From Ustulina deusta (Eukaryota > Ascomycota > Sordariomycetes > Xylariales > Xylariaceae), in the NCBI GenBank assembly GCA_023159155.1, contig JAJNNX010000015.1, forward strand, positions 806,001 through 870,000: a stretch of 64,000 nucleotides of DNA. Reading direction: 5' to 3'. Shown here one piece after another: positions 8,136-33,135 of this stretch (positions are counted from its first letter, which is position 1; every line of letters begins with the position of its first letter). The notes beneath the pieces are model-generated. The model did no database searches and had not been told where the DNA came from. It was given only the letters and a program-made list of their open reading frames with translations. A program made the translations under genes and the position numbers.

Positions 8136-9333
8136 TCACCACAACAACTTCTCGTTTGTTGATCCACATCCTCCTTCCAATTCCCCCTCGACAACGTCCT
8201 TGGTCCAATCGTACATACCCCCGCGTTTACTGAACGCTTCCTGGTCCCAGCGAACCTCGCTTAGTGCTCTGTGCACTCCGACCTCCAGGATCGACCGTGA
8301 TTGTTTCTCAGCCCCGGCGCCCTTGTCAAGGAAGCAAAGGTACTCATCGAGGATGAGGTAGCTCGACGCCATAAGCGAGTTCGGCTCGGGCACGAATGAG
8401 GAGAGGTGTTGATGTTTGTCGCAGAACGTCTTGAACTGCTCGGTCGATATGAGAAGCTTCTTGGCGTTTCGTTTTCGCTTACTCAGGTACACGTCCTCAT
8501 CCTTGGAGTCATTTTCTCCCTCAACATAGAGGACTTGGAACACCTTCCACCGGAAGGGGTTGAGTTTCTGTATCATTTCCACCATGTCCTCTTCCCAGTT
8601 GTGGGTGCATATTACCGTATTAAGCTTAAACTTGATCCCCAGCTCCTGGCACCAGTCGCGAATATTAAACAGCTGTTTGACATTGTTGCCAGTACCGCGA
8701 CCAATCGCAATGTTCGTTTTCTCGTTGAAGCTGTCGCAGCTGACGCCTAGAACATCCACCCACTGGCCATTCTCTTCCACCCATCTCTTATCAACCTTTG
8801 TCCCGTTGGTGATAATGCTGACGCTTTCAAGCCCGAGCTCCTCTTTGCAGAAACGGCAGAGCATCGCTAGCTTGCCGGGGTAGAGGAACGGCTCACCTCC
8901 AGCGAAGTTGATTTTCCGCACTATGATACAGAGTTAGTAAGTGACGTTTTGAGTGCGGTCTGCAAGTGTTTTGAAACCGAGGAAAGTCTAAAGCATGATT
9001 CTGGCCTAAGAAGGAGCTTTATGCTCTCTACAACTCGCCAAAAAAAAGAGAGAGAAATAGCTCCAAGAGTTACTCACTACCAGCCGCCCTGAGTAGCCTG
9101 AGCCCACGCTTCATTTCGTCTTCGGAGGCGACGTGAGAGGATTTTTCGGTGTGGAAGCAGAAGGCGCACTCTTTGTTGCATTTCCGCGTGAAATGATAGT
9201 TTACCGAGACCGGAGTGATGGCTTTCCCTGTGTGGTGGTTCCGATAGACCAGGTACACTCCTATGCTGACAAGACAGGTGCAGCCGATAACCATGGACGA
9301 AGTCCAAATCAAACGAAGAAAATCTAGCAGCAT
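8136..9333 (-). CDS. RSAD2: viperin (RSAD2) homologue, radical SAM ddh-nucleotide synthase, 346 aa
   Basis: Exons 9333-9078 and 8920-8136 join at a GTGAGT donor and a CATAG acceptor (157-bp intron) to exactly 346 codons, close to the 361 of human viperin. Residues 1-30 form a hydrophobic N-terminal helix, a likely ER or lipid-droplet anchor. The [4Fe-4S] motif CNKECAFC (Cys52, 56, 59) is followed by FHTEKSS. The SAM-binding GGEP is at 93-96. The viperin-specific blocks [43 protein letters not shown] and [11 protein letters not shown] are all present. The C-terminus ends KLLW, comparable to the Trp-ended tail used for Fe-S targeting. Viperins convert CTP (or UTP in some lineages) to 3'-deoxy-3',4'-didehydro nucleotides that block viral polymerases. 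Nothing is missing, so I expect an active enzyme; the nucleotide used is not readable from sequence by eye. Confidence 0.95.
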
Positions 9334-9432
9334 TGTTGATATTCCACTGTGTTAATCCCTTTCAATCTTTAAAACAAAACGGAGGAGTGATGGAAAGTCT
9401 GGCTGCTGAAGGAAAATGGTGGGTTCAACGCC

Positions 9433-9440
9433 TTCTTATA
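9433..9440 (-). promoter_or_regulatory. TATA-like box upstream of viperin
   Basis: TATAAGAA on the minus strand lies about 100 bases before the viperin ATG at 9333, a usual distance in filamentous fungi. Confidence 0.45.
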
Positions 9441-10132
9441 GACTTTTTTTTGACGGCGCTCAAAATTACTCAGAATTGATGCTTGCTTTAGACGTGAAAC
9501 AGGCATCAGAGACAAGCAGGGGAGATAGGTATAAAAAAAACCGGCAAACATTGGAATACAAATGGCCTCGGTCTCTAAAAAAAAAAACTAAACTGAGTCA
9601 CGGAAGTTTTTGTTTCCCTTTCAGCCCTCTTACTGTTGAGTCAACTATGACAATAACATCAAACCGATCCCCCATGAGCGGCTAAACTACTTCATTGGAT
9701 ATTTTATGTTGGGCTTTACTTGTTTGGATGATTGGCAACAACAACGCTTCTCCTGACAGAAGTGAACAGGTCCTGCTCGGCTAAGTTCTATTTCTCACGG
9801 AGAAATCCGTAGTTCCTTGGGAGTCATAATTTCGGTCTTCAATTCGTTATGGGAACCGAGAGAACCCGTGTCGCACTCCTCATTTCTAGAAAAAATGTTC
9901 TGAGACAAGCCATGGCTTAGCAGGCGTTCCCGAGGCAAACAGACCCAGTACGGTTGTTAGTCTTTGTCAAAATATCTACTATTTGTCTTATCAAGCAGAA
10001 ATTGATTGTTCTGACGGAAAGCTGTTGCGTGTGAAGAACATTCCATCAGTTGAAACATTGTGTTTGTGGTTTGATAGAGGGCTCCAAAAAGGTTTCATCA
10101 TGGCTTCCACGCCTCTACGCTTCCCGATGGGC

Positions 10133-10140
10133 TATAAAAG
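10133..10140 (+). promoter_or_regulatory. TATA box upstream of NMP kinase
   Basis: TATAAAAG starts 80 bases before the kinase ATG at 10213. It is a textbook TATA box, more common at inducible than at constitutive fungal genes. Confidence 0.6.
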
Positions 10141-10212
10141 TACCCCGAAGACCTTCGAAATTTCTCACTTCACCTGCAAATCACTCTTAAGGTATTCACA
10201 GTGGAAGGCACT

Positions 10213-10953
10213 ATGCAATCACGTAACGATACCGTTATTTTCGTCCTCGGACCCCCAGGAAGCGGTAAAGGTACCCTTTGCAAACATGTCACGGAAATGC
10301 TGACGCTTACCCATCGGTGCTATCGCCACCTTTCAGTGGGGGACTATCTACGCGAGCTCTGTGACCCCAAGACACCCCGTGACGCGCAGGGTTTCGATCA
10401 CAGCATGATCCGTGACTACTTGCGAGAGGGCAAACTGCTACCTGCCGACGTGCTCACCCCGGTCCTTAAGCACAAGATTGACTCTACACCGAACGAGAAC
10501 GGCTCTACTGTCTGGCTGATCGACGGATTCCCACGGAACATGGAGACTGCACTTGCGTTTGAGGAGCAGGTAAATACGAGAGAGAAGCAAAGGGATGCTG
10601 GTTGGGAGAAAATGCTAATGCGCTGCTCACACTAGATCGGTCAGCCGGTGAGAGTCATCACTCTGCAATGTGACCGCAACACCGCACAACGGCGATTTCT
10701 GAGCCGAGGTAGAGAGCAGACGGACGACGAGAGACGCTTTAATAAGCGGTATGACGAGTACGTCGAGAACATGGGGGCGATTCGGAACCGCTATGCAGGT
10801 ATCATGGAATCCGTACGTATTTTGCTCTTCTCTCGTCCTTGGGTGCTATACTTATTTTATTGCTAATGACATTTGCAGATTTCCGTGGATGGAGACCAGG
10901 GACAATGCTTGCATCACTTCATGGGCGCATTACCTCCAACGTCTAGTGACTAA
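10213..10953 (+). CDS. UMP/CMP-kinase-like nucleoside monophosphate kinase, 202 aa
   Basis: Three exons (10213-10569, 10636-10812, 10879-10953; introns 66 bp each with GTAAAT and GTACGT donors) join to 202 residues. The P-loop GPPGSGKGT is at 13-21. HLSVGDYLR (NMP-binding helix start) follows, then REGKLLPADV, the DGFPRN motif at 104-109, and a short LID of the UMP-CMP kinase type (RGREQTDDERRFNKRYDEY). These enzymes phosphorylate UMP/CMP (or AMP) with ATP. The ATG at 10213 is chosen because it directly precedes the first strand; the frame upstream has only a GTG. The gene is divergent from viperin. The vertebrate viperin neighbour CMPK2 is a larger, mitochondrial kinase of a related function, so this is a functional rather than proven orthologous match. 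No mitochondrial presequence is seen. Confidence 0.85.
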
Positions 10954-11589: not shown

Positions 11590-11688
11590 GGTCCCATAAC
11601 TCAGTTGGTTAGAGTGTCGTACTAATATTATAGCTTGTTTATAAAATTAGTAATGCGAAAGTCGTGAGTTCGACCCTCACTGGGACCA
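11590..11688 (+). tRNA. tRNA-Ile(AAT) with a 25-nt intron
   Basis: The full cloverleaf can be drawn. The acceptor stem is GGTCCCA with TGGGACC, discriminator A. The D arm is ACTC-AGTTGGTTA-GAGT. The anticodon stem is TCGTA (11617-11621) with TGCGA (11654-11658, one G-T pair). The loop is CT-AAT-A-A with anticodon AAT at 11624-11626. The T arm is GTGAG-TTCGACC-CTCAC. The intron occupies 11628-11652, directly after position 37, the canonical site for nuclear tRNA introns. Internal A and B boxes for RNA polymerase III are intact (B box GAGTTCGACCC). Confidence 0.93.
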
Positions 11689-12480: not shown

Positions 12481-13787
12481 TTATTCATCCGAGGGGTTCA
12501 TGGCCTTAATAAGTGTAGCATTCATGTCCTCCTTCAATTTGCGCAGCCGCTTGATCAATTTCTTATTCTCCAACGCTTTCACCGCCGCGTTATTACCCGC
12601 TTCTTTTTTTGATAGACCGCTTCCGTATGCAAGACTGAGATTTGTCTCGCCCAAGCCGTCGTAGTACGCCCCCACGGTGAACCAAGGTAGACCACTGTTC
12701 TTATCTTTCTTCGGCTGGCCCACATCTCGGTAAGAAATCCTGACCCCTTTTATGCCAATGGTCTGGGCCAAGGCTACTTTTGGGACAGGGTGTGCTGAAA
12801 TACCACCACCAAAGCGCCCCTCACCTCCGACAGGATTGGAATGTCCTTCAATAACGGACTTGTATTCATCACGAATCTCTCGCTTGAGGACAGTGCCCCA
12901 GACTGGCTTTATCCATGCGATAACACGTGGGAGGCCGTCAGCATCGCCTAAAATGGCCGCGGCCACATAGGCTTCAAAGAGGTCGCCGAGAATTTTTTTT
13001 CTCTCCTTTTTTGACGCTGATGTACCAGCCCCTGTCTGGGACTGCCTACCTCCAGGCTGGAATTCAATGGGCAGTCTAGCTCGCTTGTCGATGTTGTATC
13101 GTAGGGTGAACTCGGACAGCGTCTCATTCTTGACGAGCCGTTCCCGAAGTTGCGAGCACCGCCCCACGGGTAGGTTTGGAAATGTCTGATAGATGAGTGC
13201 GGATGACGCGAGATATAGATACGCATCGCCGATCCACTCAAGCCGCTCATAATCCATCTCTCCAAGGCCGCTCACTACGCCAGAGTGCGTACGGGCTGCC
13301 TGCTCGAGAATGGGGTTTAACACAGGAGGCAGGGGTGGTAGGACGTCCGCATCGGGAACATCTTGAGGCGTCCATTTCGTGAGCAAGGCTGGAAGTGGAA
13401 TCGGCAATCCCGACTGCGGATGACCGTTTGAAGGTCCCTGGCACTGGTCCACTTTCGGGATCTTGTGCGTCTTTTCTGATGCTGAGCTCACACTGGCGGT
13501 CTGTCGATAGATGTTAAAGATATGATCTGAGCTTTGGGTGATTTATGGAGTCCTCGCACCTCATCCCGGGACAGTGCCTGCACTGCGGGGTGTATCTGAG
13601 CATTATGTTGTTTGAGAGCTAAGAGGATCTTCTCATGCAATGGGGAATCGCTGTATTTTCCGAGTCGCTCAAGGTCCTGCTTGAGAGATTGCGCAGCTTT
13701 CAGTAAGCTGTCGGCATGATCTAATACCGCAAGGTAGCGAGAACTTGACGCTAATGTTGAAAACTCCTCAAACGACCGCTTAGACAT
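12481..13787 (-). CDS. RNT1: ribonuclease III (Rnt1-type), 415 aa
   Basis: Two exons (13787-13560 and 13500-12481; 59-bp intron with donor GTGCGA and acceptor CGACAG) join in phase 0 to 415 residues. After about 150 N-terminal residues without recognised motifs comes the RNase III catalytic domain with the signature ERLEWIGDAYLYLASS (about 161-176). Its second metal-binding block, ILGDLFEAYVAAAI, carries Asp249 and Glu252. A double-stranded RNA-binding domain follows (about 318-400), ending in the conserved SKKEAGNNAAVKALE helix. This is a single RNase III domain plus dsRBD, unlike Dicer. Yeast Rnt1 processes pre-rRNA, snRNA and snoRNA precursors in the nucleus. The acidic residues for catalysis are present. 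It is divergent from the mS33 gene with 313 bp between starts. Confidence 0.9.
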
Positions 13788-25124: not shown

Positions 25125-28100
25125 TTATGCCTTCGGCTGAAGAGCAGCGGGAAGGAACTTCGACTTGGAAGCAATGTGCTGCGCGAGGTCAATCATAGGC
25201 TGGTTCTTGAGGATTTCAGAGACGTGGATCACGCCCTGGAGATCCTTGAGGGCCCAGGCACGAATGTCGACAGCGATGAGGGAGTCAACACCGTATGTGT
25301 TGATCGGGCGGGACGGGTCAAGATCCTCAAGCTCCATCATGAGGCCCTTGGCAAGCTTCACCATGAGGCCCTGGCAGACCACCTTGGTGGCATCGACAAT
25401 GGTCTTGGCTGCACCGAGGAGGGCGGCCAGGTCGACGGTCGTACCGCTGCTCTTGTTAGACTTGGCGTTCTGCGTAGCCGAGTCGAAGGCTCGGAGCGGT
25501 CCAAAGCGGGCGTCGGCGAACCAGTACGGATCGTCAAAGCCGTTTGCCTTGACGAGGCCACCACTTGCTAGACCCAGGGTAGGCTGGTTGCGGATCTCGC
25601 CCGCCATCGCCTCTTCGAGGATTGCCCACAGTTGGGCGGAGCCGATCTGCGGCGCACCGCAGGCCACGATATCTGGCACTTTACCTTGCTCCGACACGAA
25701 ACCGATATCACCCATCCAGCCCAGGTCGATCGACGTACCGGCTAGACCCAGAGTGCGACGGTGGTACGTGAGGGCATCCTGGTACACGTTACCGGCGTTG
25801 TAATTGCTCTGAGCGATGGAACCGATCTGGCCGGCGGAAGAAGACAGCGTGATAAAGAAGTCAAGGTCCTTGGGCAGCTGGTTGTGCAGGTTGGTGGTGA
25901 CGAAGTACTTGGGGCGGATGGCACCGTTCCAAGCGTCGAGGGGCATAGTGTCGAACATAGAATCCTAGGACCGGGCGTTAGCAGATATGTCAACAAATTC
26001 AATCAGGTTTCAGAAAACTGCTTACCTTGACGTTCATGGCTAGAACAACTGCACCCTTAATGGGCGGGAAGTCACTCTTGGCTAGCTCCTCAAGAACCCT
26101 AGCACACTCAGCCTCCTCACCAATATCCGTGGCAAAGACGCGAGTCTGTACACCTCTAGCGTCGAGCTCGGTGAGGACAGCTTGGACTTCAGGGTTCTTG
26201 GCACCAGAGCGCGAGGTGAGAGCGAAGTACTTCGCACCCTTGTCAGCCATCCAGGTGAGCATGGAGCGACCGAGACCACCAGTACCACCAGGAATGAGAT
26301 AGGTAGCGTTAGGATTGAGCTTAAGCTCGGTCTTCTTGCCACGCGTGACGGGAACGATATCGTCGTCAGTGACCTGGAGCACGACCTTGCCTAGGGAGCG
26401 GCGGGACTGCAGGATGCGGAAAGCGTCAGAAATCTCAGAGAACTTCTTGATGTTGAGCGGCACAAGCTTGAAGACGCCCTCGGCATAGTACTTCAGAACA
26501 TCCGCCATAAGCTTGCTGAAGACGCGCTTGTTGGTGCGGTACATTTGTAGGATGTTGACGCCAGAGAATGTGGCGTTGTTAAGGAACGGCACCATGTCAA
26601 GACCCGTGTTGGACTTGATATCCTTCACGCCCAGCTCGATGAAGCGACCGAATGGTGCAATGCAGTGCCAGGTCTGGCGTAGCAACTCGCCGGTGAGCGA
26701 GTTGATGACGACCTGGACGCCCTCACCCTTAGTGACACGCTTGATGCCCTGAACGAAGCCGGCATCCTTGTTGCTAAAGATGTGGTCATCAGGGATACCG
26801 TACTTCTCCTTGAGCAGGTTCTTCTCGGTCTCAGACGAGACAGTGACGAGAACTTCGGCACCAATGTGCTGAGCCATCTGGATCGCGCCCTGACCGAGAA
26901 CATCAGCAGCGGAGTGGATCAGAATAGTCTCGCCGGCCTCAAGGCGGGCGGCATTGTAGACACTGTAGGCCGCAGTGCCGTAAGAGATCAGCAGGGAAGC
27001 ACCCTCTTCAAAGGACATGGATTCGGGAAGCTTCTGGAAATTCTCCTGGCTGTTTCGGACGTAAGTTCTGTACCACCCATTAGCGACCGTCAGGACACGG
27101 TCACCAACAGCGTAGCCAGAAACGTCCTTGCCGAGGCGAGTGACGACACCGGAGCATTCGATACCGAGGTTGACGTCCCAAATTTGGCCAACAGCCACAA
27201 CCATGTCAAATTGGTCGAGACCGACGGCCTTGACCTCAATCTCGACCTCTGAATCACCAAGAGGCTTCTCGTACTCGGCATCATCGCTGAAGAAGAAGCT
27301 GTCGAGCTCACCAGTGGCCTTGATGGCAAGCTTGAGAGCACGGTTAGCCTGCTTGAGTGGCTGTAGGGACAGGGCGTTCTCGTTATCCTCGCTAGGCTCA
27401 AGAAGTCGGCTCAGGCTCTCATCGGTGCCGAGACGGAGGACGTGAAGAGCACCCTCGCGAGCGGCAAATTCGTGCTCGTTATTCGCAGCATCGCCCTGGA
27501 TATTTAGCACCTTAAGGATTGTACTCGTGGTGGAAGCATCATCGAGTGAGACTTTAGGATCGAGATCGAGGGTAACAACACTGATCTCAGGATCTTCACC
27601 GCGGACCGTGCGGGCTAGACCAGTAATCATGTTGAGCACAGGTCGTTGAGTGTCAATAGTAGCACCACCTTGGGTGAGCCAGAGGGTACCATCAGATTTG
27701 AGGAGAACATTCTTGACAGCCGTGTACTGCACTTCGTCCATGGTGGTCAGCACCGACTTCTCAACCTCAGCAGCAACAATAACACGGCTCTTTTTCAAGT
27801 CAGCCTCAGCAGCTTCGGTGAGGGTCTTCTTGTCAACGGTAGCGCCCCCAGCGGTGAGCTTCTTGGTTAGTTCTTCGACGAGACCTTTGGCCTCAGCAGA
27901 CTCATCGGAACCAGTGACGATGGTAACGTTGTTAAGAGGAGAGATCTTAGGCTCAATAGGGTTAGTGGCGGCGACGAGTGAAGACGACCAACCAACATCG
28001 TCACGGTCACGGAAGCACAGATCAGCGCCAGTGAAGCCGACGGATTTAAGACGCTCGTCCCAGCCCTCTTCGGAAAGCTCAGGACCCCAGTGTCGGTCGT

Positions 28101-31100
28101 CATCCTCACCGAGCCACCAACCAGCGAGCAAACCGAAGACGGCAGAACGTCTACCAATCTTGCTAGTTAGCTCGGTAACGATAAGCTTACCACCAGGCTT
28201 CAGCAGCCTGCGGGCGTTAGCTAAGGTCGTGCTGATCTTGGAAGTCGCGTGCAGGACCTGGAAGGCAACGACGACATCATAGGTACCCTCCTCGAAGCCC
28301 TGTGCTGCAGGCTCGTTCTCGACATTCAAGACCTTGAAGTCCATCAGAGAGCGGTATTCCTTGAACTCCTCGGCAGCCTCGGCGAAGAAAGAACCAGAGA
28401 TATCAGTGTAGGTGTACTTGGTGAGCTTGCCGGGAACGTTTTCGCCTAGAGCGGCAAAGATACGGCTGGTGGCCGAACCGGTACCGGCACCAATTTCAAG
28501 GATGCGGAGAGGCCGCTTGGCAGCTAGGCGCTTGATGTACTCGCATTGAACGGCAGGAGTTCGCTCGTCGGAAAGACCATAGCGGTACATCTCGTTAAGA
28601 GCGTTGTCATGGTTCATAAGCTCCCAGGGTTCGATCTCGCCGAGAAGGACGCTCTCAATATTGTCGCTAATGCGGACCATCATCTTACCCTCGAGGCTAG
28701 TAGCTGCGGCACGGGCAAGAACCTCATCCTCGGTCTCTTTGCTCGATGACAACCACTCTGGGGTCTGGCAAGGAAGCTTGCTCTCGCTGGCAAGCTTCAC
28801 TTGATTCTTCATGTAGTTGTAGAAGATCAGGTGGTGAGGGGCCATACGCTTGGCGTCTTCATCAGTGAAACGTTGAGCCATTCTCTTGCACACGATGTAT
28901 GCGCACCACTCGAGGTCGTAGACCTCCTTGTATGGCACCTGGGGAGCCTTGTTGATAGCGTCAGTCAGGACCTCCTTCAAGGTCTCTGGGGAGTTCTCGA
29001 CGTCGACGTGCCATGTCGAGTAGGCACCCAATTTGCGAACAGCCTTGATCTTAGCCTCTTCTTTTTCGTCGTCTTTATTGTCGGAGTTGTAGTCAGTCGA
29101 CTTCAAGCCCTCGAAGATGAGCAGAGGCTCAGCCCACTTCTCATCGGAGAGAACGACAGTTCCGTTGGTGCCATCAGCCCACTTCTCCTTAATCTCGGCG
29201 TAACCCTGTAGCTTTGAGCCAACTTCGGTTGGCAGCTTGGTGGAGACATAGATACGCTCGATGTACTTGGGAATGGTGATCTTCTCAACGCCCTCGGCGG
29301 CTAGGAGGATGTGAAAGATACCATCAAGGGTAGCAGGGTGGATAACGTAGGAGGATTCCACGTGAACAGGCATCCAAGATTGCGTGTCCGGAACCTCGAG
29401 AGTAGCAACGACGGCGTTACCAGCAGTGCGTGACTCCTTGAGGGTCTTGAAAGTTTCGCCCCAGCGCATACCAAGTTTCTCAAACTTGGAGTAGAACTCC
29501 TCACCGGTGTGGGAAGTCAATTGAGCGCCCTGGATGCGAGCATACTCGTTCTTGTAGATTTCGTTGTTGGCGACCTGTTCGTCGGCAAAGCTGGTCGCGT
29601 GATTGTCAGCTGCATATTTCGGCGAGACGAGACCAGTGCTGTGCTGAGTCCAGGTGCCATCACGGGCACGGCTAGAAATGGAGAACTCCTTCCAGTATGT
29701 TGTGAGAGACCGCGAAGCAAGACGCCAGTTACGGAGCTGGAGCTTAGTCTCAACGGGCTGATCCTCGTTGTCGGTGAGGATGATCGGTGCACCAGGGAAA
29801 ACATCTCGGAACTGCACACCCTCGAGGACTTTGCCAGGCTCGGCAATTTGGCGCACGGCCTCCACAACCATGGTTAGGAAGCCTGCAGCGGAGAATAGGA
29901 ATGTGTCTTGTACACCGTGATGGCGAGCCCACGGGATCTCGGAGGTGCGCAGGTAGTTGCGCCAAGCGGGCTCAGCATCGCCGGAGAATATATCGCGTGA
30001 GCCCAGAACGTCGTGTTTAGGTTCACTTCGGTTCTTGTAAGCGTAAGACAAAGCGGTCTCATACCAAAATCGCGTATTATGGTTCCAGGAGAAGTGAGGG
30101 AGGTCAACAAGGAAGCTTGGGAGCTCCTGCTTAGAGTCGAGGTGGTTGGCCTTGCTAACATCAATAGGTAGACCCTTCTGGAACAGGATACCAACACCCT
30201 TAAGAGTAGTTCGGATGGCATCCTCCTTGCGCGTGAGTAGGCTAAATAGATTGAATTCCGAGGGTGGCGTGGGCAGAGCCTTGAGAATCTGCTTGACAGG
30301 TCCTTGCAAGGCGCCGTGAGGCCCAACCTCCATCAAGACAACGGGTTTGCCAGAAACGGTGGGCTCGCTCAGGATGCCAGACAGAGCAGGACTGAAACGG
30401 ACGCAGTTAACCATGTTGTCCACCCAGTATTGGGGGTTTAGGAGGCCGGCATCGTCAATTTCCTTGCCGCTGACGGAGGAGAACATGCGAGTAGCGCTAG
30501 CTTCGCCACCCTTGATACCCCTCATGGACTCGTAATAAGGCTCCGCCAGTTTCCTCATGAACGGACTGTGGTAAGGGGTCTTGACGAGCAGCTTCCTGGC
30601 CCAAGCCTGGCTGCCAATGATGTTAAGCACCTCATCAACACCCTCCACACTACCGGAAAGGGTCACACTTTCGGGGCTGTTCACGCAAGCAATGACTGGC
30701 TTGGGGTCGGAAGTGCACTGGTCGATGAAAGGCTGCACGCCCTCCTCTCCAAGGGCAACAGCCAACATGGCACCGGTAATGTTGAGGCTGGCTGATAGAC
30801 GACCACGATGGTAAGCAACAGTCCAGGCAGCTTCGCGGGAAAGGGCACCCTTGGCGTAAGCGGCAGCGATCTCACCGCTGGAGTGGCCGACGGTAAAGTC
30901 GGGAGCGGCACCCCATTCCTTCAGGAGGTCAACGAGACCCACTTGAACGGCAGTGCAAGCCGGTTGACTAATCTGGGGTTCGTTGACTCGCGAATCGGCC
31001 TGGCTCTTTCCAAGCTCCTCGACAAGATCCCACTCACAACCGAGAGACTTGAGGTGAGCAGCTGCTTCTTCGATACGAGTGCGATAGGTGCGATAGGCCA

Positions 31101-33135
31101 GAAGTTCTCGGCCCATACCAAACCACTGAGCACCTTGGCCGGTAAAGATCCACACCGATGCAAGGTTGTCCGAGGGACGCAGGTGCTTAGCAGGGATATC
31201 GAGCTCCTTAACGGCCTCGTCGAGATCCGAAGCAACGACAAATGAGGCCCAAGCGTGCCGGGATCGGCGTCCTGACAGCGTGTAAGCCAAGCGCTTGAGG
31301 TGAGTGGGAGCCTCGGTAGCGAGAACATTTCCCTCCTTCAGGTAGGCCTGCAGATCCTTGGCGGTTCTCGCAATGCCGTTTTGTTCGTGGTGCGACCAGA
31401 CAAGGAGCTGAGGCGTGGAGGAAATCACTCCCAGGTCCTCCGCGCTGTCAACCTCGGAGGCGGGGGTGGTGGTGCCTTCAGTGCTGACAACTTCAGAGTT
31501 CAGAACACTAGTAGGGACAGCCGACGACGCTAGGGAACTAGGGACCTCGGGTTCAGGGGTGAGAAGAGCAGGTCGAGGGACGATGGAAGCGGTGTTGTGA
31601 CGCCCGGTGAGCCCACGGCTAGTGAGATAATTGTAAGCATCATCAATAATACAATGAGCATTAGTACCGCCGTATCCGAATGAGTTAATACTGGCACGTC
31701 GTAGACCGTCGATGGGCCAAGGAAGAAGCGCGGTGGGAACGGCAAGATTCCATTCCTTCAGCAAAATCTTTGGGTTGGCTCTTTCGAACCAGATGTTAGG
31801 AGGGATCTGACCCTTCTCGAGAGCATAAATTGCTTTGGTGAGGCCGGCAATACCAGCAGCGGCTTCCAAGTGGCCGATATTGGACTTGACGGACCCGACA
31901 TATAGCGGTAACTCGGGAGTGTGGTACTTGCTGAAGACCTTGGAAATAGCAGAAGTCTCCAACGGGTCACCAGCAGGTGTACCGGGACCATGAGCCTCAA
32001 AGTAGGTTGTGTTCTCGGGCGTCAAATTCGCGTTAGTGTACGCGGCTCGGATCAAGTCCTCCTGCGACTCGGCAGAAGGCAGATTGATACCGGGAGTTCG
32101 ACCGTCGTGGGTCACCGAGGTTCCTCGAACAACCGCGCGAATACAGTCGCCATCTCTCAGAGCATCGGCCAAAGACTTAACGACGATGAAAGAAACGCCC
32201 TCGCCACGGGAGTAACCGTTAGCCTTGTGGTCGAATGACTGCGACTTGCCATCCTTAGACAAAAAGGACAGGGTGCTGAGATGGTTGGAAGTGTGCGGTG
32301 CCAAAATCAAGTTGGTGGCACCAACGAGAGCCTATATCAAATGTCAATATTAAGTTGTGTGGGTGTACTATCTTTTGGCCAAGCATACCATATTTGACTC
32401 CCCAGTGCGAATGCTTTGCATGGCTAGGTGCAAGCAGACAAGAGACGATGAGCAAGCGGTATCAAGCGTCAAGCTAGGTCCCTTCAGGTCGAAGTACCAG
32501 GAAACTCGGTTGGACACCATGGCAGTACCCATAGAGCCGTTGGCTTCGTAACGACTGGACAAGAGTTAGTCGACCTTTCGAGCCGTCGAATGCAGATACT
32601 TACGGGTAGTCGTCCGGATCAATGGCGCGAATCGCGGCATAATCCCTGACACAGGTACCCAGGTAGCATCCCATGCTAGATTGGGCAACGTCGGCCATTG
32701 TCAGGCCAGCTACGCGTTCATTATTAGCCAACTATGCCCTCCGACTTTTGACGGAAGCCACAAAGCCTTACCTGATTCCAAGGCCTCGTATGCGAGTTCG
32801 AGAGCAAGTCTCTGTTGGGGGTCCATAGCATGGGCCTCCTGGGCTGAGATCTTGAAGAAAGGAGCATCGAATAAGCCAACATCAGAGGATATGAAGTGGC
32901 CCTTTCGGGTGCTTGTTGTTCCCTGGTGCTCGGCACTAGGGTGGTAGAATCCATCAATGTTGTAGCGGTCCTTTGGTACGTCGGTCAACGCACTCCTCGC
33001 CTGGGAGACCATATCCCAAAGTTTGCCTGGGGTCGACGCATCTCCCGGGAATCTGCCCGAAACACCCACGATGGCGACGGGCATCGCACCATCCTTGGCG
33101 AGGATGGCCTCGATTTCTTGTTGTGACAGGGCCAT
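25125..33135 (-). CDS. highly reducing iterative type I polyketide synthase (KS-AT-DH-CMeT-ER-KR-ACP), 2593 aa
   Basis: Five exons (33135-32772, 32709-32604, 32554-32389, 32331-26026, 25964-25125) join in frame to 2593 residues. KS about 19-445: DTACSSSL with Cys191, [12 protein letters not shown] with His326, SNIGHLEA with His366. AT about 606-915: GHSSGE with Ser697. DH about 988-1290: His1018 in ARHHGVQD and Asp1216 in HPATLDG. C-methyltransferase: [11 protein letters not shown] near 1492. ER about 1890-2200: [14 protein letters not shown] near 2019. KR: GGTGGLG near 2228 and Tyr2369 in SNYNAGN. ACP: GVDSLI with Ser2542. There is no thioesterase, so release needs another enzyme or hydrolysis. 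The DH motif lacks the usual Gly and Pro, and the ER cofactor loop lacks its Gly pair. The product cannot be predicted. No tailoring gene, transporter or regulator is adjacent. Confidence 0.96.

Follow-up and report, generated by a model that had tools for sequence, protein, structure and literature searches.

A viperin gene paired head to head with a UMP/CMP-type kinase gene in Ustulina deusta and related fungi: a candidate two-enzyme unit

Introduction

In vertebrates, the viperin gene RSAD2 lies beside CMPK2, the gene for a nucleoside monophosphate (NMP) kinase that has a mitochondrial signal at its N-terminus and a thymidylate-kinase domain at its C-terminus. This kinase provides vertebrate viperin with substrate, and in chicken the adjacent kinase gene runs in the opposite direction, as in the fungus described here (PMC9132166, partial text). 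In the prokaryotic pVip and pVip-kinase systems catalogued by PADLOC, a nucleotide kinase lies beside viperin or is fused to it, and an essay places 15% of bacterial viperins next to a CMPK2-like kinase and describes eukaryotic viperins as limited to CTP or UTP derivatives (PMC11249213, partial text). In fungi, the viperin/SAND enzyme of Thielavia terrestris (TtRSAD2) has been isolated and found to dehydrate CTP and UTP to their ddh-analogues (PMC9642334, partial text). Here we analyse a viperin gene of Ustulina deusta (Xylariaceae, Xylariales) that stands head to head with a gene for a UMP/CMP-kinase-type enzyme, both being located in a 64-kb stretch (the window) of a 991,556-bp contig of the 56-Mb genome.

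Ustulina deusta, also known as Kretzschmaria deusta, is a wood-decay fungus. Its viperin belongs to the same enzyme family as TtRSAD2, for which no kinase partner is mentioned in the available part of the describing paper, where the word kinase does not occur (PMC9642334). The word is likewise absent from the corresponding part of a second text on viperin evolution and naming (PMC10732462). As far as the available portions go, the literature searched gave no account of a viperin-kinase pair in a fungus, and an earlier description is possible. A search on viperin and mycoviruses, judged by titles and the beginnings of abstracts, likewise gave nothing on fungal viperin.

Results

The rebuilt gene models bear out what the sequence-only reading had proposed for this locus, namely, a viperin of 346 residues and a kinase of 202 residues that start 879 bp apart on opposite strands, each with a TATA-like box of its own. 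The gene and exon models below were built by script, and the motifs were read directly in the sequence.

8136..9333, minus strand: viperin (RSAD2/SAND-type) gene, 346 amino acids, two exons, ATG at 9333
9333-9078, minus strand: viperin exon 1
9077-8921, minus strand: viperin intron, GT-AG
8920-8136, minus strand: viperin exon 2
9157..9180, minus strand: viperin codons C52 to C59, radical-SAM motif CxxxCxxC
9334..10212, no strand: intergenic region of 879 bp between the two start codons, with divergent promoters (from the gene models)
9342..9351, minus strand: 10-mer CACAGTGGAA, 8 nucleotides upstream of the viperin ATG (a hint only)
9431..9441, minus strand: TATA-like box CTATAAGAAGG, its far end 108 bp upstream of the viperin ATG
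10133..10139, plus strand: TATA-like box TATAAAA, 80 bp upstream of the kinase ATG
10197..10206, plus strand: 10-mer CACAGTGGAA, 6 nucleotides upstream of the kinase ATG (a hint only)
10213..10953, plus strand: viperin-associated NMP kinase gene, UMP/CMP-kinase type with a shortened lid, 202 amino acids, ATG at 10213
10213-10569, 10636-10812 and 10879-10953, plus strand: the three kinase exons
10249..10275, plus strand: kinase P-loop GPPGSGKGT, residues 13-21

The predicted kinase is identical across all 202 residues to a database protein (P0001). For viperin, only one locus was found in the 56-Mb genome.

We read linkage in other fungi from protein lists, taking two genes as linked when their rows shared a longest contig of the same size, and using locus tags where these were positional. 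All 97 kinase rows were compared with the best 120 of 2,085 viperin rows and the best 120 of 734 RNase III rows; each row stands for a cluster at 90% identity, so that a species may have the gene without its label appearing. The counts that follow are of contig sharing in relatives, the head-to-head orientation having been read in the U. deusta window only. The kinase and viperin lists had 40 contigs in common, 38 of them with a species label, and 36 of the 39 species labels present in both lists had the two genes on one contig. Chance would give 0.81 shared contigs if genomes are assumed to be 45 Mb, and the pairing is thus far in excess of chance. Two contigs without a species name, only 2,927 and 7,371 bp long, also carry both genes. 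Wherever locus tags were positional, those of the two genes were consecutive (seven of seven pairs: O1611_g450/451, E0Z10_g4921/4920, NUW58_g802/803, RRF57_012444/012443, PG986_000200/000199, ABKA04_005871/005872 and ANO14919_043260/043270, the last numbered, as we read it, in steps of ten). The three labels without a shared contig were Hypoxylon sp. FL0890, Jackrogersella minutella and U. deusta itself. The last is an artefact of listing, because the window holds the two genes side by side; the viperin listed for U. deusta is a representative with 98% identity that lies on a different contig.

One genome labelled Lasiodiplodia mahajangana (Botryosphaeriales; P0003, P0101 and P0266, contig 36396) places both its kinase and its viperin inside the Nemania clade in the respective trees. 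Judged by these placements, it is probably a mislabelled Xylariaceae genome.

As a control for inherited gene order, we used the gene that follows on the side of the kinase.

12481-13491, minus strand: RNase III gene, with a double-stranded-RNA-binding match below the cut-off

RNase III was listed for 30 of the 36 linked labels and lay on the contig of the pair in 17 of these and elsewhere in 13 (four Annulohypoxylon and three Hypoxylon labels, Hypomontagnella monticulosa, Biscogniauxia mediterranea, Apiospora aurea, Xylaria longipes and isolates FL0255 and FL0594; the X. longipes RNase III contig is only 40.8 kb long). Under the NCBI taxonomy, Annulohypoxylon and Hypomontagnella are Hypoxylaceae, Biscogniauxia is in the Xylariaceae and Apiospora belongs to another order, the Amphisphaeriales. 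A recount of the 33 labels with rows in all three lists found the three genes together in 17, the pair kept and RNase III elsewhere in 13, and all three apart in two. The one label left is again the U. deusta artefact, for which the lists join kinase with RNase III and set viperin apart while the window holds all three. A sign test of 13 to 0, with the U. deusta artefact left out, gave a p value of 0.0002 when species were treated as independent, which they are not. The Xylaria arbuscula label covers several assemblies and was counted once, as linked to RNase III, though its contig 220134 has no listed RNase III row.

Inherited gene order therefore explains part of the linkage, and the pair outlasts its nearest flank in 13 of the 30 linked species, which is the conservation in related genomes that the sequence-only reading had looked for. 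Isolate FL0016, in which both proteins of the pair group with rows of Hypoxylon and Hypomontagnella, has all three genes on a 1-Mb contig, suggesting that the ancestral order may once have included RNase III. Across the 38 linked named contigs, median identity to the U. deusta proteins was 60% for the kinase and 76% for viperin; for RNase III, where listed, it was 67%. The flank control fits selection for a shared promoter and selection for two cooperating genes alike. It is possible, though unlikely, that RNase III is itself a member of the viperin-kinase neighbourhood.

The kinase matches the Pfam ADK family (PF00406, 79.7 bits). Its best NCBIfam family is UMP_CMP_kin_fam (TIGR01359), and because this match falls below the cut-off (102.5 against 207.6 bits), we regard the protein as a divergent member of the UMP/CMP kinase family. 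The Pfam search gave it no match to PF02223 (thymidylate kinase), a family found in only one place in the U. deusta genome, on another contig than that of the window. The Ura6-like kinase of U. deusta is encoded on contig C36 and is 37% identical to the window kinase. A tree of 84 rows, comprising 79 of the 97 listed kinases (those of 170 to 260 residues) and five rows from the U. deusta genome (its Adk1, on C69, and a distant copy on C55 being left out), placed the window kinase inside a clade of 66 rows (support 100/98). Outside this clade fell Ura6, the UMPK-like genes on C37 and C2, and Adk2, all from the same genome. We therefore rejected the possibility that the window kinase is the housekeeping Ura6; the separate kinase clade anticipated for a dedicated partner does exist. 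The clade also takes in proteins from Diaporthe, Stachybotrys and Ophidiomyces, genera outside the linkage count.

In the alignment of 41 kinase relatives, Lys19 was kept in all 41, and Lys19, Arg47, Arg108, Arg139, Arg143 and Arg157 were each kept in 39 to 41; these residues have a catalytic role in the family. The lid is three residues shorter than that of U. deusta Ura6, the GRSDD motif occurs in none of the 41 relatives and Arg145, where Ura6 has Lys, is present in 40. An AlphaFold model of the kinase (pLDDT 89.6) had five best PDB fold matches with TM scores of 0.74 to 0.80, three of them UMP/CMP or uridylate kinases (5ukd, 1uke and 1uky, 0.77 to 0.80) and two adenylate kinases. Kinases of the Ura6/CMPK1 type (PDB 1uky, 1tev and 1uke) thus resemble the modelled fungal enzyme in fold and in the conserved Lys and Arg residues, whereas identity in the structural alignments is 27 to 28% and the fungal lid is shorter and without GRSDD.

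A Stachybotrys kinase (P0043) nests among the Hypoxylon/Apiospora-type kinases (97/78 with that of Hypoxylon sp. FL0890, whose kinase is not on the contig of its listed viperin). This placement may reflect a kinase transfer.

Viperin has a Pfam PF04055 match of 69.9 bits and the CxxxCxxC motif (C52, C56 and C59). It passes the curated cut-off of the NCBIfam model NF038283, viperin_w_prok (255 against 180 bits), and family membership rests on this model because the score with the TIGR04278 viperin model stays under its cut-off (351 against 450 bits). The nine best PDB sequences comprise five annotated as viperin, viperin-like enzyme or RSAD2 and four that bear only the name radical SAM core protein; MoaA comes tenth (31.6 bits). 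Across 17 fungal viperins, there is little or no variation at the cysteines corresponding to C52, C56 and C59 (numbered 50, 54 and 57 in the relative P0098).

The viperin tree was made from 118 of the 120 displayed rows. In this quick tree of the best 120 rows, viperins of Mycena and Favolaschia join those of the Xylariales and Stachybotrys to the exclusion of Dothideomycete-type rows (SH-aLRT 97). Mycena and Favolaschia are Basidiomycota, and the grouping is compatible with a possible transfer between phyla.

For comparison, 75 prokaryotic viperin loci were retrieved together with flanks of at most 4 kb per side; contig ends truncate some of them. A thymidylate-kinase-family segment was present in the flanks of 11 (L033, L036, L038, L039, L044, L049, L051, L074, L075, L078 and L081, with L067 marginal). 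The L049 segment, 1.1 kb from viperin on the other strand, may be an ordinary gene. In two loci, viperin is fused to a Cytidylate_kin2 domain (L054 and L059). In Nannocystis bainbridge, a frame running on past the viperin stop (L034:4879-5450) matches DNMK, deoxynucleotide monophosphate kinase (46.3 bits), perhaps representing another kinase family beside a bacterial viperin. No clear ADK-family kinase was found in the 75 loci. The ADK model gave nine weak hits of at most 27.7 bits, which comprise the two viperin fusions, six segments of the thymidylate-kinase type and one segment scoring 12.5 bits. Conversely, the fungal kinase gave no hit with a thymidylate-kinase model built from seven of the eleven prokaryotic segments, those seven having been confirmed by Pfam.

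The sequence-only reading had described the same pairing as that of RSAD2 and CMPK2, and hence an ancient module. This part of it did not hold. Vertebrate CMPK2 is of the thymidylate-kinase type, whereas the fungal enzyme is a 202-residue UMP/CMP-type member of the ADK superfamily; with neither a PF02223 match nor a hit to the thymidylate-kinase model, it was rejected as a CMPK2 orthologue. The prokaryotic partners, of thymidylate- and cytidylate-kinase types, stand next to or are fused with viperin, whereas the fungal pair consists of two spliced genes head to head. Because the fungal kinase is ADK-like rather than thymidylate-kinase-like, the fungal pairing most likely arose independently. 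These comparisons of family are best read as pointing to recruitment of a different kinase to viperin, not to inheritance of the vertebrate module.

The two copies of CACAGTGGAA stand in the same orientation relative to their respective genes. Among 20,000 draws of random 40-mer pairs from the window, a fraction of 0.0008 shared at least 10 bases, the element itself having been spotted by looking. A search of the whole genome for the pattern ahead of an ATG returned 19 matches, at 18 sites of which one was read twice, against five for the reversed control. Our own arithmetic puts the chance expectation in 56 Mb at about 20, and CACAGTGGAA therefore marks no regulon. We set it aside as a shared control element and retain it as a hint only.

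Two further features of the window were noted. A tRNA gene lies between the kinase and RNase III genes; it is long enough to hold an intron and was matched by Rfam, with no match from ARAGORN in its bacterial mode. Large open frames resembling a reducing polyketide synthase, judged by eye with no family search made, lie farther off.

11590-11688, plus strand: tRNA gene
25125-32310, minus strand: reducing-polyketide-synthase-like open frames

Discussion

We lean towards the view that the pair is a dedicated two-enzyme unit of the Xylariales and related fungi, in which the kinase would raise CDP and UDP for a viperin that makes chain terminators against mycoviruses. The putative UMP/CMP-kinase-type enzyme would make CDP and UDP, and hence CTP and UTP, from which viperin would form ddh-CTP or ddh-UTP, nucleotides that probably act as chain terminators on the polymerases of RNA mycoviruses. 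We infer both the pyrimidine supply for ddh-nucleotide synthesis and the action on mycoviruses. The supply step draws on family knowledge, by analogy with a fungal viperin that acts on CTP and UTP and with CMPK2, which supplies vertebrate viperin.

Several observations weigh against this view. Viperin and kinase are on different contigs in two of the 39 labels (Hypoxylon sp. FL0890 and J. minutella). Several viperin-bearing relatives, such as Rosellinia necatrix and Xylaria cubensis, have no kinase row, and, among the best 120 of 2,085 viperins, none of the Mycena, Favolaschia or named Dothideomycete labels recurs in the kinase list; within the sensitivity of the search, the kinase is therefore not part of every fungal viperin locus. 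The PADLOC model for viperins lacking kinases gives the U. deusta viperin a slightly higher score (234.8 bits) than does its counterpart for viperins accompanied by kinases (222.8 bits). The fold search, made with a predicted structure, does not tell the kinds of nucleotide apart, UMP/CMP and adenylate kinases matching about equally, and the Stachybotrys relative P0043 has a weak dTMP kinase match (19.9 bits against a cut-off of 83.25). Finally, U. deusta has a second, unlinked kinase copy (C1:1543460-1544072; L016, L021 and L027).

This copy is apparently intact, encoding 198 residues when spliced by script, with an exon layout that matches that of the window kinase; CACAGTGGAA is absent from it. 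It is 94.4% identical to X. arbuscula P0034, as against 50 to 51% for the window kinase and the viperin-linked X. arbuscula P0042, and so likely derives from a recent transfer between genera or from introgression. Another linked pair of X. arbuscula, on contig 220134 (kinase P0041 and viperin P0138), falls among Hypoxylon/Apiospora-type rows in both trees. We do not claim that it was transferred as a unit: approximately unbiased (AU) tests on 44 of the 97 kinase rows and 49 of the 120 viperin rows, with short, long-branched, unnamed and lower-ranked rows left out, did not reject its placement with other Xylariaceae (P = 0.273 and 0.273). Carriage of the two U. deusta kinase loci by Starship elements was not supported, as neither contig C1 nor contig C31 has any of the DUF3435 matches, of which there are at least 29 in the genome.

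One alternative to a dedicated unit is that the two genes are unrelated, have no joint function and owe their linkage to inherited gene order, being rarely split because they share a short divergent promoter region. RNase III still shares the contig of the pair in 17 of the 30 linked species, most of all in Xylaria and Nemania, and a short divergent intergenic region is in general harder to break than a convergent one. We nevertheless consider this account unlikely, given that the pair persists in the 13 species from which RNase III has moved away, including Annulohypoxylon, Hypoxylon, Biscogniauxia and, in another order, Apiospora, and that it has been kept although the kinase is the fastest changing of the three genes (median identity 60%).

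Alternatively, the kinase might act after viperin on a modified nucleotide, either rephosphorylating ddh-CMP and ddh-UMP in salvage or adjusting the terminator pool. A special substrate is what a separate, fast-changing clade beside the housekeeping Ura6 would suggest, and the divergent lid (three residues shorter than that of Ura6, GRSDD in none of 41 relatives and Arg145 in 40) points the same way; the ordinary residues of the family are kept, however, and are compatible with plain CMP and UMP, so that such a role seems to us rather improbable. A pathway in which viperin and kinase make a secreted ddh-nucleoside against competitors instead of mycoviruses would agree with the hypothesis, in the available part of PMC9642334, that the fungal enzyme makes antiviral natural products, and a polyketide-synthase-like frame, recognized by eye, lies about 14 kb away (25999-32310). 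Yet among the listed open frames, the only ones looked at, no nucleoside-tailoring gene was seen beside the pair, and the conserved unit is one of two genes, joined by RNase III in some species; we therefore give this pathway very little weight.

Beyond the two-enzyme unit that we favour lies a bolder proposition, to which we subscribe only tentatively and would not quite put at even chances: that the Xylariomycetidae independently built a viperin module for mycovirus defence by duplicating a UMP/CMP kinase of the ADK superfamily, changing its lid and locking it head to head with viperin over a shared control region.

If the pair is what we propose, it would be the first viperin-kinase coupling reported in fungi, as far as the literature searched extends, and would add a kinase family to the thymidylate- and cytidylate-kinase types coupled to viperin in evolution. 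A dedicated kinase could also aid the enzymatic production of ddh-nucleotides. With a conserved two-gene unit present in many culturable fungi, gene removal would offer a direct test of whether viperins protect fungi from mycoviruses. If viperin has been paired with different NMP kinases several times independently, the supply of substrate would seem to be a general bottleneck of immunity based on terminator nucleotides.

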